From: Methanobrevibacter ruminantium M1
GTDB lineage: Archaea; Methanobacteriota; Methanobacteria; Methanobacteriales; Methanobacteriaceae
Direction of reading: 5' to 3'
Assembly: GCF_000024185.1 (NCBI RefSeq)
Contig: NC_013790.1
Span: 310,001 to 374,000 of the forward strand
Length of the DNA stretch: 64,000 nt
The translations under genes and the position numbers were made by a program. Positions 6,655 to 55,490 of this stretch are shown here, piece after piece. The notes below the pieces were generated by a model. That model saw nothing but the letters and a program-made list of their open reading frames with translations, made no database searches and was not told the origin of the DNA. Positions within the stretch are counted from its first letter, which is position 1. The number at the start of each line of letters is the position of its first letter.

Positions 6655-7293
6655 ATGTCAAGCAATTCAGATAAAGATATATTAAAAGAATTAAGAGATA
6701 TAACAAAAGACAAGGAAAGCTGGAAATCAAATATAAATCATGTCGCAGTTAAATTGAATGATGATTTTTCCCTTTCAGTAAAGGCAAAGGTCTTATGGCT
6801 TCTTGGAGAAATGGGTTTAAAACACCCATTGGAGATAGAAGAATATGTCGATGACATTGCAGTTTATTTGGAGGATGATCATCCTAAATTGAGGGAAAGG
6901 TCAGCTAATGCAATTGGAAGAATAGGCAGGGCTGATAAGAACTTAGTAATCAATTATATGGATAAATTGATGAAACTGAGTGACGATGAATCAGAAAGTG
7001 TAAGGCATGCATTCATCTGGGCTTGTGAAAACATAGCTGTAAATGCTCCAGAATTGTTTTGTGAAAAATTGGATATATTTTATGAAATGATTTCAGATCC
7101 TGGTGAAAAGGTTCGCATAGAAGCTCCTGAAATCTTTAGGGTAGTTGGAAAAAGAAATCCAAGTTGTGTAAAGCCTTATTTGGATAAATTAGAGCATATA
7201 GCAGAAAATGATGAGAACCCTGTTGTTCGCATTCATAGTGCTGGTGCAGTTCGAATTACAAGAAAAGCCTTAAAAGAAAGTGATAATGCTTAA
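6655..7293 (+). CDS. HEAT-repeat protein
   Basis: A 212-residue alpha-helical repeat protein. The central part repeats the PBS-lyase/HEAT type pattern: VYLEDDHPKLRERSANAIGRIGR, DDESESVRHAFIWACENIA, and a further unit with DENPVVRIHSAGAVRITRKAL. About four to five repeats of 35-40 residues can be counted. Such proteins act as scaffolds or docking surfaces; no catalytic residues are seen. In methanogens similar proteins are often simply conserved hypotheticals. The start ATG 6655 has a weak GAGAG upstream. It is followed by a long T-rich spacer with a 43-bp repeat. Confidence 0.8.
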   Translation: MSSNSDKDILKELRDITKDKESWKSNINHVAVKLNDDFSLSVKAKVLWLLGEMGLKHPLEIEEYVDDIAVYLEDDHPKLRERSANAIGRIGRADKNLVINYMDKLMKLSDDESESVRHAFIWACENIAVNAPELFCEKLDIFYEMISDPGEKVRIEAPEIFRVVGKRNPSCVKPYLDKLEHIAENDENPVVRIHSAGAVRITRKALKESDNA

Positions 7294-50035: not shown

Positions 50036-50195
50036 GTTTAAATATTGGTGGAAACTTATAAAAATACTTATTGTTGCTTTTTAAGTTTTTATTGTTGTTT
50101 TTTAAGTTTTTATTATTGTTTTTTAAGACTAGTTTAGATTTCTTTAAAAATAGTTGTTTTTTGAGCTTTTTAGATAAGTTTTAAAAAATAGTAAG

Positions 50196-50280
50196 CGCTA
50201 TGAAGAGGATTTGAACCTCTGGTGCTCTCGCACATCCGCTCTCCAGGCGGACACCTTAAGCCTGACTCAGTCACCATAGC
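50196..50280 (-). tRNA. tRNA-Ser (anticodon GGA)
   Basis: Cloverleaf with long variable arm. Anticodon stem TCCGC/GCGGA encloses CTGGAGA, giving GGA (codon UCC). Acceptor GCTATGG/TCATAGC; discriminator G, as in archaeal tRNA-Ser. No CCA encoded. Most downstream member of the minus-strand tRNA cluster. Confidence 0.96.
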
Positions 50281-50389
50281 ATTTAATTTAAAGTTTTAAT
50301 TTTAATTTCAGTGTCAATTCAAATTTATAGTTTAGTTTTAATTTAAATTTTAATTTATATTTCAATTAATTCCTTTTAATGTTATTTAA

Positions 50390-50474
50390 CGCCATGAAGA
50401 GGATTTGAACCTCTGGTACTTTCATACGTCCGCTCTCAAGGCGGATACCTTAAGCCTGACTCAGTCATCATGGC
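50390..50474 (-). tRNA. tRNA-Ser (anticodon TGA)
   Basis: Very similar to the neighbouring tRNA-Ser(GGA). Anticodon loop CTTGAGA gives TGA (codon UCA). Long variable arm; discriminator G; acceptor GCCATGA/TCATGGC. Confidence 0.96.
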
Positions 50475-50658
50475 AATTTAATTTAAGGGGAAAAGATTAA
50501 TCTTTTTATAAGATCAATCTTTTAAATTTATGGGAAAAGACTAATCTTATTTATCTAGTAAAAATAGTTTTAATCTTATATTTATGAAATAAGATCAATC
50601 TTTTTAATTTAAGAGGGAAATATTAAACCTTTAAGCTTTTTTAACTTAAAGATTTAAA

Positions 50659-50730
50659 TGAAGATAGAAAGATTCGAACTCTCATCTCTTGGTCTGGAGC
50701 CAAGCATTCTTGCCGTTAAACTATATCTTC
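50659..50730 (-). tRNA. tRNA-Trp (anticodon CCA)
   Basis: Anticodon stem CTTGG/CCAAG with loop CTCCAGA gives CCA (codon UGG). Acceptor GAAGATA/TATCTTC; discriminator A. Unlike many archaeal tRNA-Trp genes it has no intron. Confidence 0.95.
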
Positions 50731-50739
50731 TTTTTTTAA

Positions 50740-50811
50740 AGCTCTAGCTGGGACTTGAACCCAGAATTCACCTTTAGAAGAGGTGTTTGTTTCCAATTAC
50801 AACACTAAAGC
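50740..50811 (-). tRNA. tRNA-Arg (anticodon TCT)
   Basis: Anticodon stem CACCT/AGGTG with loop CTTCTAA gives TCT (codon AGA). Acceptor GCTTTAG/CTAGAGC; the discriminator position reads T, unusual for Arg. The body is strikingly close to tRNA-Gly(TCC) at 50912-50983. Confidence 0.9.
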
Positions 50812-50814
50812 AGA

Positions 50815-50887
50815 TGGACCAGTTGGGAGTCGAACCCAAAGTCTTCTCCTCGCAAGGGAGACGTCATACCAATTAGACCACAGGCCC
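50815..50887 (-). tRNA. tRNA-Ala (anticodon TGC)
   Basis: Anticodon stem TCTCC/GGAGA with loop CTTGCGA gives TGC (codon GCA). Acceptor GGGCCTG/CTGGTCC with G-T at 3-70, the alanine identity pair, and one mismatch (6-67). Discriminator A. Confidence 0.95.
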
Positions 50888-50911
50888 AGTATTTTTTTTT
50901 ATATATGAAAG

Positions 50912-50983
50912 TGCTTTAGCTGGGATTCGAACCCAGATTTCACCCTTGGAAGGGGCGGGTGTTGCCAATTACAGTACTAAAGC
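50912..50983 (-). tRNA. tRNA-Gly (anticodon TCC)
   Basis: Anticodon stem CGCCC/GGGTG with loop CTTCCAA gives TCC (codon GGA). Acceptor GCTTTAG/CTAAAGC is perfect; discriminator A. Shares about four fifths of its bases with tRNA-Arg(TCT). Confidence 0.93.
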
Positions 50984-50988
50984 AGAAA

Positions 50989-51061
50989 TAGACCTAATGG
51001 GATTTGAACCCACAATCTTCTAGTCCGTAGCTAGATGCTTTTTCCGTTAAGCTATAGATCC
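50989..51061 (-). tRNA. tRNA-Arg (anticodon ACG)
   Basis: Anticodon stem TCTAG/CTAGA with loop CTACGGA gives ACG (codon CGU). Acceptor GGATCTA/TAGGTCT with G-U pairs; discriminator A. A34 is unusual in archaea, which use G34 for this box; a GCG tRNA-Arg is also present at 9297-9370. Confidence 0.88.
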
Positions 51062-51074
51062 ATAATTTTTTAAG

Positions 51075-51145
51075 AGATAATGTCCGGAATTGCACCGAAA
51101 TAAACTGCTTTGCAAACAGCCACCTTTCTAGTCGGTCACATTACC
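51075..51145 (-). tRNA. tRNA-Cys (anticodon GCA)
   Basis: Anticodon stem GCTGT/GCAGT with loop TTGCAAA gives GCA (codon UGC). Acceptor GGTAATG/CATTATC; discriminator U, the cysteine identity base. Confidence 0.94.
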
Positions 51146-51148
51146 ATA

Positions 51149-51223
51149 GGGACACATAAGGGATTTGAACCCTTTCCACAAGCTCCACAGACTTGTATGC
51201 TAGCCATTAACACCAATGCATCC
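51149..51223 (-). tRNA. tRNA-His (anticodon GTG)
   Basis: Anticodon stem CAAGT/GCTTG with loop CTGTGGA gives GTG (codon CAC). Acceptor GGATGCA/TGTGTCC; discriminator C as expected for His. The base before G1 is T, so the G-1 needed for charging is not encoded and must be added afterwards. Confidence 0.93.
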
Positions 51224-51296
51224 ATAAGAAAGATAATGAAGATAATAATGGAATAATTCATTGATTATCTGATTCAACGTTTTTATTTTATTTTAA

Positions 51297-51369
51297 CGCC
51301 TCCGCCGGGATTCGAACCCGGGTACCACGGCTGACCACCATGGATACTAGGCCACTATACTACAGAGAC
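51297..51369 (-). tRNA. tRNA-Asp (anticodon GTC), atypical loop
   Basis: Acceptor GTCTCTG/CGGAGGC uses two G-U pairs; T arm CCGGG/CCCGG is perfect; discriminator G fits Asp. Anticodon stem CATGG/CCGTG encloses TGGTCAG, so the anticodon reads GTC but position 33 is G instead of the near-invariant U. Confidence 0.8.
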
Positions 51370-51382
51370 ATGATTTTTGAAA

Positions 51383-51456
51383 TTGGTCTGAAGGGATTTG
51401 AACCCTCGATCACTTGCATATCAGACAAGCGCCTTACCATGCTTGGCCACAGACCA
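51383..51456 (-). tRNA. tRNA-Ile (anticodon GAT)
   Basis: Anticodon stem CTTGT/GCAAG with loop CTGATAT gives GAT (codon AUC). Acceptor TGGTCTG/CAGACCA is perfect but begins with T; discriminator A. Confidence 0.92.
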
Positions 51457-51512
51457 AATTGATAAATTTTATAGGGCAGAATTATTTATCACTCAAATTG
51501 TTGTTTTTCTAA

Positions 51513-51596
51513 CGGCGTGGATGGGATTTGAACCCATGAGCGTTTTATCGCAGAGGATTAGCAGCCCTCCGCCCTACCGAGCTAGGCCACCACGCC
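51513..51596 (-). tRNA. tRNA-Ser (anticodon GCT)
   Basis: Anticodon stem GAGGG/TCCTC with loop CTGCTAA gives GCT (codon AGC). Long variable arm, acceptor GGCGTGG/CCACGCC, discriminator G. Confidence 0.95.
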
Positions 51597-51603
51597 AGTT
51601 TAG

Positions 51604-51676
51604 TGCTTCTACCGGGATTTGAACCCGGATTATCGGATCGAAAGTCCGATGGGTTTGCCGATTACCCCATAGAAGC
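51604..51676 (-). tRNA. tRNA-Glu (anticodon TTC)
   Basis: Anticodon stem TCGGA/TCCGA with loop CTTTCGA gives TTC (codon GAA). Acceptor GCTTCTA/TAGAAGC is perfect; discriminator A. Confidence 0.96.
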
Positions 51677-51678
51677 AG

Positions 51679-51753
51679 TGAGCCTGAAGGGATTTGAACC
51701 CCTGATCTTCCGGTTAAAAGCCGGACGCCTTGATCAGACTTAGCCACAGGCCC
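51679..51753 (-). tRNA. tRNA-Lys (anticodon TTT)
   Basis: Anticodon stem TCCGG/CCGGA with loop CTTTTAA gives TTT (codon AAA). Acceptor GGGCCTG/CAGGCTC; discriminator A. Only two bases separate it from tRNA-Glu, so they are processed from one transcript. Confidence 0.96.
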
Positions 51754-51769
51754 CTATCAATTTACTAAA

Positions 51770-51794
51770 GGGTTGGAGCTATTACCTCCAACCC
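51770..51794. other. Perfect hairpin inside the tRNA cluster
   Basis: GGGTTGGAG (51770-51778) and CTCCAACCC (51786-51794) form a 9-bp stem with loop CTATTAC between tRNA-Lys and tRNA-Asn. It is more GC-rich than the spacers around it and is not part of a tRNA cloverleaf. No T-run follows on either strand, so it is not a standard terminator. Confidence 0.6.
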
Positions 51795-51843
51795 TGCACA
51801 AGGTGACAAATATTGCATATTTTATTAAGATTAATATCTTAAG

Positions 51844-51915
51844 CGGTTCTAAGAAGATTCGAACTCCTATCTGCCGGTTAACAGCCAGTTGTTTTACCTG
51901 TTAAACTATAGAACC
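51844..51915 (-). tRNA. tRNA-Asn (anticodon GTT)
   Basis: Anticodon loop CTGTTAA gives GTT (codon AAC); stem ACTGG/CCGGC has one A-C mismatch. Acceptor GGTTCTA/TAGAACC; discriminator G as usual for Asn. Confidence 0.94.
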
Positions 51916-51954
51916 GATTTAAGCTTAAATCACTGCATTAATAATTTAAAAGAG

Positions 51955-52026
51955 TGGGGCTAAAGGGAATCGAACCCATAACCTTTTGGATGTCAGCCAA
52001 ACGCTCTGCCATTGAGCTATAGCTCC
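51955..52026 (-). tRNA. tRNA-Val (anticodon GAC)
   Basis: Anticodon stem TTTGG/CCAAA with loop CTGACAT gives GAC (codon GUC). Acceptor GGAGCTA/TAGCCCC with one mismatch; discriminator A. Confidence 0.94.
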
Positions 52027-52251
52027 ATAAGATTAATTTAATTAATCTTCATATAGTTGAGAAGCTTTTTAAATTATTTCGACCTGCTTGTAATTTAAGC
52101 TGTAACTTATGAAATTTTCCTTAAAATTTATTTACTTTCTATTTCTTTTATTACCGAAATTGGCTAAAATTTATTTCATTAGTTTAAATTCATTTTAAGG
52201 AGTTAAACTTATATTTTTTTTTTTAAATTTATGAAGAAATCCATCTTCATA

Positions 52252-52324
52252 TAGTTCTATCCCGTCTCGAACGGGAATCTCCGGGTCCAAAGCCCGGAAT
52301 GATTGCCAGTTACACCATAGAACT
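52252..52324 (-). tRNA. tRNA-Gln (anticodon TTG)
   Basis: Anticodon stem CCGGG/CCCGG with loop CTTTGGA gives TTG (codon CAA). Acceptor AGTTCTA/TAGAACT; discriminator A; T-arm loop is TTCGAGA. Confidence 0.95.
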
Positions 52325-52330
52325 AATTGA

Positions 52331-52403
52331 TGGGATAGCCAAGATTTGAACTTGAGTTTGTCGCTCCCAAAGCGACGGTGCTAGACCACTACACTACAAT
52401 CCC
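52331..52403 (-). tRNA. tRNA-Pro (anticodon TGG)
   Basis: Anticodon stem GTCGC/GCGAC with loop TTTGGGA gives TGG (codon CCA). Acceptor GGGATTG/CTATCCC with one mismatch; discriminator A. Confidence 0.94.
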
Positions 52404-52481
52404 ATAATTTTAATATATTTTTGATTCTTTCTGGATTTTTTTTAAAAAACACATTCCTGAATTTGTCAAGAAGATGTTAAG

Positions 52482-52552
52482 TCTCCGCGGAGGGATTCGA
52501 ACCCCCATAAACGGTTCTACAGACCGCCGCATAACCACTTTGCTACACAGAG
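52482..52552 (-). tRNA. tRNA-Tyr (anticodon GTA)
   Basis: Anticodon stem GCGGT/ACCGT with loop CTGTAGA gives GTA (codon UAC). Acceptor CTCTGTG/CGCGGAG begins with C1-G72, the archaeal/eukaryotic tyrosine identity pair. No long variable arm, as expected for archaea. Discriminator A. Confidence 0.96.
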
Positions 52553-52726
52553 AGTTAAAGGAATATATTCTCATGGAGTTGTAATTATGGTTGAGATCTT
52601 TATTAGTACATAGGAGGAAAAACATTAAATTTGAGATATTAAAGAGAATATATTCCTAATTGATTAAATATAGTTTAAAACTAATTAATGGGTTCAGTAA
52701 ATTTTTTTAGTTTAAACTTATTTAAA

Positions 52727-52798
52727 TGGGACATGCTGGATTTGAACCAGCGATGAACAGATCTTCAGACTGTCGCTTTCCCGCTTAGCTAATGCCCC
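52727..52798 (-). tRNA. tRNA-Phe (anticodon GAA)
   Basis: Anticodon loop CTGAAGA gives GAA (codon UUC); stem ACAGT/TCTGT has a T-T at its last pair. Acceptor GGGGCAT/ATGTCCC; discriminator A. Confidence 0.94.
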
Positions 52799-53380
52799 AA
52801 AAATCTAATTAGTAGTGATAAATTAAGTTAAAGGCTAATTAAGTTATAGGTGTGTGTTATGAATATTTGTGAATTAATTGCATTAACTGAATTTTAAATG
52901 ATTTTTTAGATGATTGCGTCTCTAAAATCAATCGATTTATCAAAATATAAATTAATGGAGTTGACTTTGCTAATTTTAATGATTAAAATCATTGATTTTA
53001 GATTTCAAAATCCTGAAACTTAAAAATCCTTTAACTTAATTGTAAAAATACGTTTTATTAGAACTGTTTTAGGAATTATTTTTCCCAAATAAACTATAAC
53101 TGTGTGGTGAATGGTTGGTATATATGGTTTGGTGTTGGTGTTTGTTTTTTGGGTATAGAATTTTCTTTTATGATCCCAACACAAACCTGTCTACCACATC
53201 TTCACCAATAGGGCAATTATAGCTGCAGGCACTATCTTGTGACTGTCTGCTGCTATAATCTCCTTCAATAGAAGATTTGGGATTAATAAAATTATTATTA
53301 CTATGAATTTTCATTTTATCACGTTTTCTTTGTTTTTTCGTTGTTTTGTTTTTTCCATGAAGATAATTTTTATCTTCCAG
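52799..53380. other. 582-bp gap inside the tRNA cluster
   Basis: The only large gap between tRNA genes. About 52800-53090 is AT-rich with nothing recognisable except the imperfect inverted repeat AAAATCA...TGATTTT around 52927 and 52985. About 53168-53314 holds a probable small gene on the minus strand. GT-rich sequence lies at 53100-53150 (TGGTTTGGTGTTGGTGTTTG). Confidence 0.5.
53168..53314 (-). CDS. Small protein, 48 residues, inside the tRNA cluster
   Basis: ATG at 53314-53312, TAA at 53170-53168. GTGATAAA sits directly before the ATG, the usual ribosome binding pattern of this genome. The stretch is clearly less AT-rich than its surroundings. The product starts MKIHSNNNFINPKSS, has a Ser/Gln-rich centre, two cysteines (CSYNC) and ends VVDRFVLGS. 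It is hydrophilic with no membrane segment. I do not recognise it. The good start signal and composition make it more likely real than not. Confidence 0.5.
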   Translation of the reverse strand: MKIHSNNNFINPKSSIEGDYSSRQSQDSACSYNCPIGEDVVDRFVLGS

Positions 53381-53464
53381 TAGCCGAGACGGGATTTGAA
53401 CCCATGAGGAGACTAACTCCCTGGATCTTAAGTCCAGTGCCTTACCAAGCTTAGCTACTCGGCT
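53381..53464 (-). tRNA. tRNA-Leu (anticodon TAA)
   Basis: Anticodon stem CTGGA/TCCAG with loop CTTAAGA gives TAA (codon UUA). Long variable arm; acceptor AGCCGAG/CTCGGCT; discriminator A as usual for Leu. A TATA-like CTTATATATACAC lies about 45-58 bp upstream on the minus strand. Confidence 0.95.
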
Positions 53465-53504
53465 ATTTACTTTTGATAATTTTTCTCATCATCAATTAAA
53501 CTTT

Positions 53505-53870
53505 TGTTTTGTGTATATATAAGTTGAATAAAGTTTTTGCTTTACTTGGGCCTTTCCTTTTGATAAGATCTTTTTACAATCTTTTAGAAATTCCTTTTCG
53601 GATATTTCCTATTCTATTGTCTGTTTTGGTTTATATATAAATTGAATAAAGTTTTTGCTTTATTGAAAGTTATTATTTGAAAATAATTTCTTTCAAGAAG
53701 ATTTTTAAATCTTCATAGCTGCGATGGGATTTGAACCCATGATGAGACTAACTCCACGAATCCTAAGTCCGCTGCCTTAGACCTGACTTGGCACTACACA
53801 GCTATTTCATCTTGATGAATTTTCATCATCAAATAAACTTTTATTTTGTGGATATATAAATCGAATAAAG
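53505..53870 (-). promoter_or_regulatory. Three related TATA-containing repeats at the tRNA-Leu genes
   Basis: The words TATATAA(G/A)TTGAATAAAGTTTTTGCTTTA occur at about 53516-53544 and 53633-53661, and a diverged TATATAAATCGAATAAAGGAAATTC at about 53851-53875. The first and third lie upstream of tRNA-Leu(TAA) and tRNA-Leu(TAG) at the distance expected for an archaeal promoter. The second has no gene behind it. Confidence 0.55.
53716..53803 (-). tRNA. tRNA-Leu (anticodon TAG)
   Basis: Anticodon stem GCGGA/TTCGT with loop CTTAGGA gives TAG (codon CUA). Long variable arm; acceptor AGCTGTG/CGCAGCT; discriminator A. First gene of the cluster in transcription order. Confidence 0.95.
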
Positions 53871-53940
53871 GAAATTCTTTAGTGAAGAAAATTAGTTTTT
53901 AAATCAATCATTGATTGAATAATAAAATAGTTTGATAGGA

Positions 53941-54140: not shown

Positions 54141-55490
54141 CTAGAACCAGTCTTTAGAAGCTTCTAGAATCTCATCTACTATGATTGGTGCAGAACCAAT
54201 ATAAGTGTGAGGGTCCATGATTCTTTCAACGTCCTCTTTGCTTAGGAATTGACTTGCATCAGGGTCTTCAAGGATAAGGTCTGCAAGGAGAAGCTTTTCC
54301 TTATTTGCTTTTATCGCATTCTTTCTAGCGACCCCATAAGCTGTTTGCTTACCCATTCCAGCTCTTGTAAGCTCTGCCATTAATCTTTCAGCCATGATGA
54401 GCCCATTTGTGAAATTAAGGTTTCTTTCAATGTTTTCATCATAGAAGATAAGATTGTTCATAAGCTTGATTGTAAGGTTTAAGATGTAATCTGTAAGAAT
54501 GCAAGCTTCAGGGAACATGATTCTTTCACAGGAAGAGTTTGTAAGGTCTCTTTCGTGCCAGAGAGGGTTGTTTTCCATAGCTGCATTTACATATGATTTT
54601 ACTATTCTAGCAACACCACAGATTCTTTCTGCTGTAATTGGGTTCATCTTATGTGGCATTGTACTACTTCCAACTTGCTTTTCAGGGTCGAAATATTCTC
54701 CTAACTCTTGAATTTCAGTTCTTTGTAGGTTTCTAACTTCAAGAGCTATTTTGCTAAGGGTTGTTGCAATGTTTGCAAGGGTAGCTATGAACTCTACATG
54801 ATTATCCCTTTGAAGGACTTGGTTTGTAATTGGGGCTGGCTTAAGGCCAAGAATTTCAGATACCTTCTTATGAACTTCCCATCCTTGGGTTCCAAGAGCT
54901 GCAGTGGTTCCCACAGCACCATCCATCATTCCAAGACATACATTGTCCTTTGCATGCTGCAACCTGTCATATTGCCTGTGCAATTCATCGGCCCAGATTG
55001 CAAATTTCATGCCGTAGGTGGTTGGAAGTGCATGCTGTCCGTGTGTACGGCCTATGCATACCTTTGTTTTGTTTTCATCTGCTAATTTAAGAATTATCTT
55101 GGTTAATCTTTCGATTTTTTCTTCTAAAACTTCAATGGAGTCTTTTAAAAGCAATGAGTTAGAGCTGTCTACAATATCGTTAGAGGTTGCTCCAAAGTGA
55201 ACGTATTCTCCAGCCTCACCTTCACATACTTCGCTTAATCCTTTTGATAGGGAAGCGATATCGTGTTTGGTTTCAGCTTCAATTTCACTTACGCGCTCTA
55301 AGGTTACATATTCAATGCTTGCTTTTGCTTTGATTTCATCTGCATATTCCTTTGGAATTATTCCAAGCTCACCTTCAGCTTGAGCCAATGCAGATTCAAT
55401 ATCTAACATTCTTTGCTGTTTGTTTTCCTGCTCCCAGATTCTTTTCATTTCTGGAGTTCCGTATCTAAATTCAATTGGATGTATTGCCAT
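54141..55490 (-). CDS. purB: Adenylosuccinate lyase
   Basis: A 449-residue enzyme of the fumarase/aspartase superfamily, acting twice in purine synthesis (SAICAR to AICAR, adenylosuccinate to AMP). The signature loop GSSTMPHKMNPITAERICGVAR is intact, and the catalytic His is in GRTHGQHALPTTYG. FGATSNDIVDSSNSLLLKDS is the usual substrate-binding region. Ribosome binding site AGGAGAG. Single gene; followed by two hairpins that would stop transcription before the tRNA cluster. Confidence 0.97.
   Translation of the reverse strand: MAIHPIEFRYGTPEMKRIWEQENKQQRMLDIESALAQAEGELGIIPKEYADEIKAKASIEYVTLERVSEIEAETKHDIASLSKGLSEVCEGEAGEYVHFGATSNDIVDSSNSLLLKDSIEVLEEKIERLTKIILKLADENKTKVCIGRTHGQHALPTTYGMKFAIWADELHRQYDRLQHAKDNVCLGMMDGAVGTTAALGTQGWEVHKKVSEILGLKPAPITNQVLQRDNHVEFIATLANIATTLSKIALEVRNLQRTEIQELGEYFDPEKQVGSSTMPHKMNPITAERICGVARIVKSYVNAAMENNPLWHERDLTNSSCERIMFPEACILTDYILNLTIKLMNNLIFYDENIERNLNFTNGLIMAERLMAELTRAGMGKQTAYGVARKNAIKANKEKLLLADLILEDPDASQFLSKEDVERIMDPHTYIGSAPIIVDEILEASKDWF

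Follow-up and report, generated by a model that had tools for sequence, protein, structure and literature searches.

Several described systems resemble the tRNA gene array of Methanobrevibacter ruminantium M1 that is analyzed here. In Anabaena sp. PCC 7120, TrcR represses the trn operon along with rtcB, rsgA and rimK, and antibiotics against translation induce the operon (PMC10272220). Like the trn operon, the M1 array is a long and redundant tRNA array, with a putative regulatory tie to rtcB. Different from the trn operon, which is cyanobacterial, located on a megaplasmid and under another regulator (PMC10272220), the M1 array lies on an archaeal chromosome and its induction is presumed. Archaeal tRNA gene clusters were listed by Morgado and Vicente in 2019 (PMC6333295). 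Their list contains the M1 cluster itself (360196–363803), together with RUG344, RUG648 and RUG833; the coordinates of RUG344 match those of G069, one of the relatives compared below. Within parts 1–2 of 4 of that paper, neither the Arg/Gly relation nor the empty site nor a common promoter is discussed.

In the reported isoacceptor and alloacceptor anticodon shifts (PMC3923123) and in mitochondrial remolding (PMC4783518), the tRNA body stays in place and the anticodon changes. These cases are eukaryotic nuclear and mitochondrial, whereas the M1 gene belongs to an archaeal accessory array, beside which the canonical genes are kept. Extra tRNAs, some of them with altered anticodon loops, are also known from phages, where they evade anticodon nucleases (PMC10264068); different from them, the M1 array is chromosomal, and two array-specific patterns had no match in viral contigs. 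Our literature search, from which subscription journals were mostly absent, found neither the Arg/Gly relation nor an rtcB-shared promoter of Methanobrevibacter in titles and abstracts. Identity switches are well documented in mitochondria and in eukaryotic nuclei. In a redundant archaeal array they can be followed while the canonical genes serve as safety net. The role of the array is unsettled in the archaeal literature searched, and a promoter box shared with an RNA ligase gene offers a testable one, reserve tRNAs plus repair.

The accessory tRNA array of M1

The M1 genome is a single contig of 2,937,203 bases; the window, the whole 64,000-nucleotide stretch analyzed, corresponds to C1:310001–374000, and plain coordinates below are window positions. 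The Rfam tRNA model gave 58 matches in the genome, which is the count published for M1 (PMC2812497); 22 of them sit in one array on the minus strand (50195–53803), at the place of the published cluster (PMC6333295). Twenty array tRNAs were called by ARAGORN, and the Rfam model added one Cys gene (51075–51145) and one Leu(TAG)-like gene (53716–53803), the Leu(TAG) label being taken from reading its loop. With 22 genes in 3.6 kb, the array exceeds the density of a tRNA gene cluster (at least 10 genes, at least 2 per kb). The ORF list between 50035 and 54141 holds no ORF of 90 or more residues.

Separate from the array, the canonical M1 set includes Arg(TCT), Arg(CCT), Arg(GCG), Gly(TCC) and Gly(GCC). 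The sequence-only reading of this locus had proposed a search for another Arg(TCT) gene in the genome, and one was found outside the array: the canonical Arg(TCT) is retained at G000:C1:2680159–2680233 (G000 is M1). We also considered the array as the sole source of tRNA-Trp. This was ruled out by an intron-bearing native Trp gene, present with both exons next to Cys; it lies outside the list of 58 matches.

One array tRNA-Arg(ACG), with A34, is located at 50988–51062; it is also present in the arrays of G011 and G005, that is in three of the four arrays of the genus, and the M1 gene was already noted as unusual for archaea (PMC8450103; PMC6000648). The array tRNA-Asp has the loop TGGTCAG, with G33 instead of U33, in M1 (51296–51370), G011 (L147:5961–6035) and G095 (L286:6437–6510). 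Loss of U33 could fit nuclease evasion, or decay; evasion of anticodon nucleases by altered array tRNAs is an idea that we borrow from phages (PMC10264068).

The same array type in relatives

Model R1 was built from 17 array genes, and its scores on those genes are no independent test. At E ≤1e-16, it identified array-type tRNAs in 11 of 150 genomes of the order: M1, three other members of its genus (g1) and seven members of genus g9. One of the seven, G072 (bin RUG648), is probably misbinned, because the tRNAs of its array are ordered as in G014 and the bin holds two different purB genes (L040 and L106). Its array contig is almost identical to that of G014, and G072 was excluded from trees and gene counts. 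Array Gly and Arg genes of the type score at least 73.5 bits with R1, except the divergent Gly of G095 (67.1 bits); two array Glu genes score 67–68 bits, and the native genes listed score at most 64.5 bits.

The Gly form of most arrays is GCTTTAGT..TGTAAT...A73. Two g9 arrays carry one Arg(GCG) with similar body and T73 (L281:7969–8041 in G069; L279:7318–7392 in G037); in a third g9 Arg(GCG), L286:5831–5905 in G095, position 73 is A and the body is less similar. No recognizable Arg of the Arg(TCT) type was found in the three other arrays of the M1 genus. Between Gly(TCC) and Ala, the G011 array holds a tRNA remnant whose loop reads TTCTAA (L147:6450–6510), perhaps another lost Arg(TCT). In the G005 array, both Gly genes have C33, not U33 (L145:6769–6841 and 6969–7041), and two tRNA-like genes with Ala-like bodies (L145:6613–6684 and 6844–6918) have TTC-type or broken anticodon loops; further identity changes and decay are both possible for this pair. 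Between M1 and G069, array genes of the same anticodon mostly have identities of 0.52–0.81, with one stray Ile pair at 0.36.

Likeness of tRNA-Arg(TCT) and tRNA-Gly(TCC)

The array tRNA-Arg(TCT) gene (50740–50811, minus strand) has A20, C35, U36 and T73; the array tRNA-Gly(TCC) gene (50911–50983, minus strand) has A73. They score 57.9 and 54.5 bits, respectively, with the Rfam tRNA model. The sequence-only reading had counted roughly 13 differences over about 71 positions, and the ungapped comparison gave just that: 13 of 71 without the discriminator, 14 of 72 with it. The shared acceptor, D-loop, T stem and anticodon loop frame that it named were found in both genes, and so was the T discriminator of Arg(TCT). 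Its placing of the genes as two apart was incorrect, as just one gene, tRNA-Ala(TGC) (50813–50888, minus strand), intervenes.

With the anticodon excluded, Arg(TCT) and Gly(TCC) are identical at 56 of 69 positions (0.81). Among the 190 pairs of 20 M1 array tRNAs, the mean identity is 0.499 (sd 0.082); Arg(TCT)/Gly(TCC) is the most alike pair of different identity, and only one Ser/Ser pair is closer. Judged by the native set, a value of 0.81 is high, yet not unheard-of between different identities, because native Arg(GCG) and Asp(GTC) of M1 are identical at 56 of 72 positions (0.78). The array Arg(TCT) is much further from the three other array Arg(TCT) genes (0.47–0.62) than from array Gly (0.81). 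It is thus nearer to another amino acid's tRNA than to its same-anticodon relatives, as in remolding; array Arg(GCG) is equally near. Different from remolding with loss of the ancestral gene of the anticodon, the canonical Arg(TCT) of M1 is kept.

The T discriminator had been called odd for Arg. This does not hold for the array, where T73 is found in 5 of 10 Arg and in none of 13 Gly genes. In native M1 genes, position 73 is G in Arg(TCT) and Arg(CCT) and A in Arg(GCG); native Arg(TCG), which gave no clean parse, was left out of this comparison.

Parentage of tRNA-Arg(TCT)

Arg(TCT) had been taken for a recoded copy of Gly(TCC). One part of that proposal is supported: the array family does contain an alloacceptor relation, a Gly-type body that bears an Arg anticodon, and it recurs in the Arg(GCG) genes of two other arrays. 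The other part, the neighboring Gly(TCC) as direct parent, is not supported: Arg(GCG) of G069 is equally similar to M1 Arg(TCT) (56 of 69 positions, anticodon excluded), and it is syntenic. Either Gly of G069 is identical to Arg(TCT) at 50 of 69 positions.

The gene order is Gly(GCC)-Ala-Arg(GCG) in G069 (L281) and Gly(TCC)-Ala-Arg(TCT) in M1, in the same orientation, and one BLAST match spans the Gly-Ala-Arg block in both search directions (E-values of 6.7e-21 and 8.4e-21). In this one relative, a syntenic orthologue thus has another anticodon for the same amino acid, as expected for an isoacceptor shift. A20 is found in all 10 array Arg genes; like T73, it links M1 Arg(TCT) with Arg(GCG) and is absent from all 13 array Gly. 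Arg(TCT) and G069 Arg(GCG) have T73, A20, A57, G59 and G69 in common; G59 and G69 also occur in a minority of g9 Gly. T31 is shared with G037 Arg(GCG) only. The common Arg/Gly body is probably older than M1, because g9 arrays hold an Arg(GCG) that is equally close, has T73 and A20 and, in G069, lies in the same Gly-Ala-Arg order.

A parent within glycine is also conceivable. In the M1 lineage, the array Gly(TCC) may have been duplicated and recoded to Arg(TCT) by a change of C36 to U, followed by A20 and U73, with a parallel event leading to Arg(GCG) in the other genus. The highest similarity to the Gly gene of the same array fits such an origin, and so do two pairs, C29-G41 and G7-C66, which Arg(TCT) has in common with Gly of the genus; C29-G41 is shared with no genes other than these Gly. 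We regard it as rather unlikely, as it needs two independent Gly/Arg switches that both reach T73, A20, A57, G59 and G69, and a copy that lands exactly at the position of Arg(GCG) in G069.

The tree of tRNAs that had been suggested as a check gave near-equal placements, leaning toward Gly without the identity positions; the 73 and 68 columns are too few for resolution. With all columns minus the anticodon, M1 Arg(TCT) grouped with the two T73 Arg(GCG) genes in the best tree; placement with g1 Gly was 0.4 lnL worse (AU 0.65 for Arg(GCG), 0.64 for Gly), whereas forcing all three Arg(GCG) as sister costs 9.4 lnL. With the identity positions removed, the Gly placement was 2.7 lnL better (AU 0.79 for Gly, 0.42 for Arg(GCG)). 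Neither the Gly-sister nor the Arg(GCG)-sister topology was rejected by the AU tests. Quartet bootstraps, from which Gly and Arg(GCG) of G095 were excluded, gave 1094 of 2000 for Arg(GCG) and 895 for Gly of the M1 genus with all columns minus the anticodon. Without positions 20, 34–38 and 73, the numbers became 391 and 1555, respectively; this count and the slight likelihood edge speak for a recoded Gly(TCC). A genome-wide search with CTCCAGA was uninformative, the string being too short.

The anticodon arm of M1 Arg(TCT) is Gly-like, and its remainder is Arg(GCG)-like. The arm differs at 4 of 17 positions from Gly and at 7 of 17 from Arg(GCG); outside the arm, Arg(TCT) differs at 8 of 55 positions from G069 Arg(GCG) and at 10 of 55 from M1 Gly. 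This pattern, together with the conflict between trees, could be explained by a mosaic: gene conversion from the neighboring Gly(TCC) would have replaced the arm of an array Arg(GCG), before C36 changed to U. Both proposals on the parent would then be correct in part. The counts are small, and outside the arm Arg(GCG) of G037 (10 of 56) is no nearer than M1 Gly (10 of 55); a mosaic origin as such appears to us improbable.

Both best trees place the Arg(GCG) genes with T73 among array Gly, apart from native Arg(GCG). For this reason, at least one Gly/Arg switch within the array family is the simplest account of these trees. By mean identity to native genes, array Gly comes nearest to Asp (0.58), and array Arg comes nearest to Arg(GCG) (0.58).

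The account that we favor, with little more than even confidence, is that Arg(TCT) is a working Arg tRNA of a probably inducible accessory array, with a body from an array-only Arg/Gly family and descent from array Arg(GCG). The body would come from a family of Arg and Gly tRNAs seen only in such arrays; this family would date back at least to the divergence of the two Methanobrevibacter genera in which it occurs. A single Gly/Arg identity switch, in one direction or the other, would have occurred in the array lineage before M1. In the M1 gene itself, an anticodon change within arginine, from GCG to TCT, is the most likely step, and the anticodon arm was perhaps overwritten from the neighboring Gly. 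Against descent from Arg(GCG) stand the possible convergence of A20 and the three other arrays of the M1 genus, in which no Arg of this type was recognized.

Arginine or glycine charging

Arginine identity in bacteria depends on A20, C35 and U/G36, in a table without archaeal determinants (PMC9976931). Archaeal Gly identity, as reported for Aeropyrum, depends on C35, C36, C2-G71 and G3-C70, and A73 is not needed (PMC9976931). As M1 Arg(TCT) has A20, C35 and U36 and is without C36 and G3-C70, ArgRS is the expected enzyme. The favored account thus predicts charging by ArgRS from A20, C35 and U36, with T73 being tolerated.

Maintenance of tRNA structure

Pairing was compared in 17 array genes for Gly and Arg: of 357 cells, 95.8% are paired, and in 11 of the 21 pairs both partners have changed. 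All five anticodon-arm pairs are changed on both sides somewhere in the set, with 100% pairing. In the shuffle control, which is inflated by kinship of the sequences, 0 of 500 shuffles reached the observed values. Because compensatory pairing is kept and no shuffle was as high, selection for tRNA structure appears to act on these genes.

This bears on neutral decay, in which the array would be a degenerating and functionless relic and the Arg/Gly likeness a product of AT-rich drift and homogenization. In favor of decay, most relatives are without the array, pseudogene calls are in print (PMC6333295), and remnants adjoin Gly in arrays L031 and L145. Compensatory pairing stands against decay, as does a promoter-like box conserved across genera while the spacers diverge; we consider such decay very improbable.

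Chromosomal locus and history of the array

The array is bordered upstream by purB (54141–55490, minus strand) and downstream by a gene for a PNPOx-like protein (PF12900; 49565–50035, minus strand). A PNPOx-like orthologue also borders the g9 arrays L281 (G069) and L286 (G095); therefore, the array tends to hold one neighborhood across two genera. In four sister strains (L032, L035, L036 and L038), the gap between purB and the PNPOx-like gene is ∼150–200 bp, compared to 4.1 kb in M1, and no array remnants were found in it. Array tRNAs are present at 4 of 80 purB loci. Two histories are possible: the array may be ancient and lost several times, or it may have been inserted repeatedly.

Viral origin was tried and rejected. 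Two strict array-specific patterns gave 0 matches in viral contigs; one loose pattern of 14 fixed bases matched 120 viral stretches, none within a tRNA, which we took as chance. In a phage collection, only weak single-tRNA matches were found, and the best covers 3% of the array. Different from phage tRNA arrays, which lie in or derive from a virus, this array is a chromosomal locus with clean empty sites.

Promoter-like box and candidate regulon

One promoter-like box, AAAGNANNTNCTTTATNNGATTTATATA, is located upstream of the first array gene (53853–53880, minus strand, exact), with further copies at 53634–53661 (minus strand, two mismatches) and 53516–53543 (minus strand, three mismatches). 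Its 18-base core, CTTTATNYGATTTATATA, is TATA-type and lies upstream of array genes. The exact core is present in 24 of 355 loci, all 24 of which are recognized as array loci. A scan of 138 genomes of the family gave 27 places, distributed over 14 genomes; 18 of the places belong to array contigs, and the reversed pattern gave a single one. Among the nine non-array places, two lie ∼65 bp upstream of an RtcB-like gene (G087 and G091).

In the M1 genome, the 28-base form with at most three mismatches is found at 16 places, the three array copies included and some of them weak or chance-like, compared to one place for the reversed pattern. One box, at G000:C1:1747975–1748002 with one mismatch, starts 64 bp upstream of a second RtcB ORF (match to PF01139). 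Further boxes lie ∼600 bp upstream of an EF-2-type gene and upstream of vWA-like and HEAT-repeat-like genes; these names, like Hsp70-like and kinase-like below, are taken from reading the sequences.

Like the trn operon, the array would share a regulatory site with rtcB, here in the form of a sequence match. The box common to the array and the second RtcB gene suggests a candidate regulon, and by analogy the array resembles a reserve set of tRNAs that is induced by stress. In the favored account, the array would be switched on when tRNAs or translation are damaged. A wider and more tentative proposal, which we hold as doubtful, is a parallel, stress-switched translation kit. It would combine a second tRNA set, altered in bodies and anticodon loops so as to be missed by agents that cut or poison normal tRNAs, with one body re-used for Gly and Arg, and one promoter box shared with the second RtcB, EF-2-type, vWA and HEAT-repeat genes. 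For rumen methanogens, the box is a sequence handle for tracing the regulon.

Some further features were observed near boxes or arrays. An odd tRNA-like gene of 109 bases with the box upstream is located at G000:C1:1083628–1083736 (L132). The region G000:C1:1705000–1757000 holds five box copies, together with EF-2-type, Hsp70-like, kinase-like and HEAT-repeat-like ORFs and the second RtcB. Near g9 arrays, and close to them, we observed one RNA ligase gene (PF09414, L278:6261–7481) and one Thg1 gene (PF04446, L285:5263–6033).
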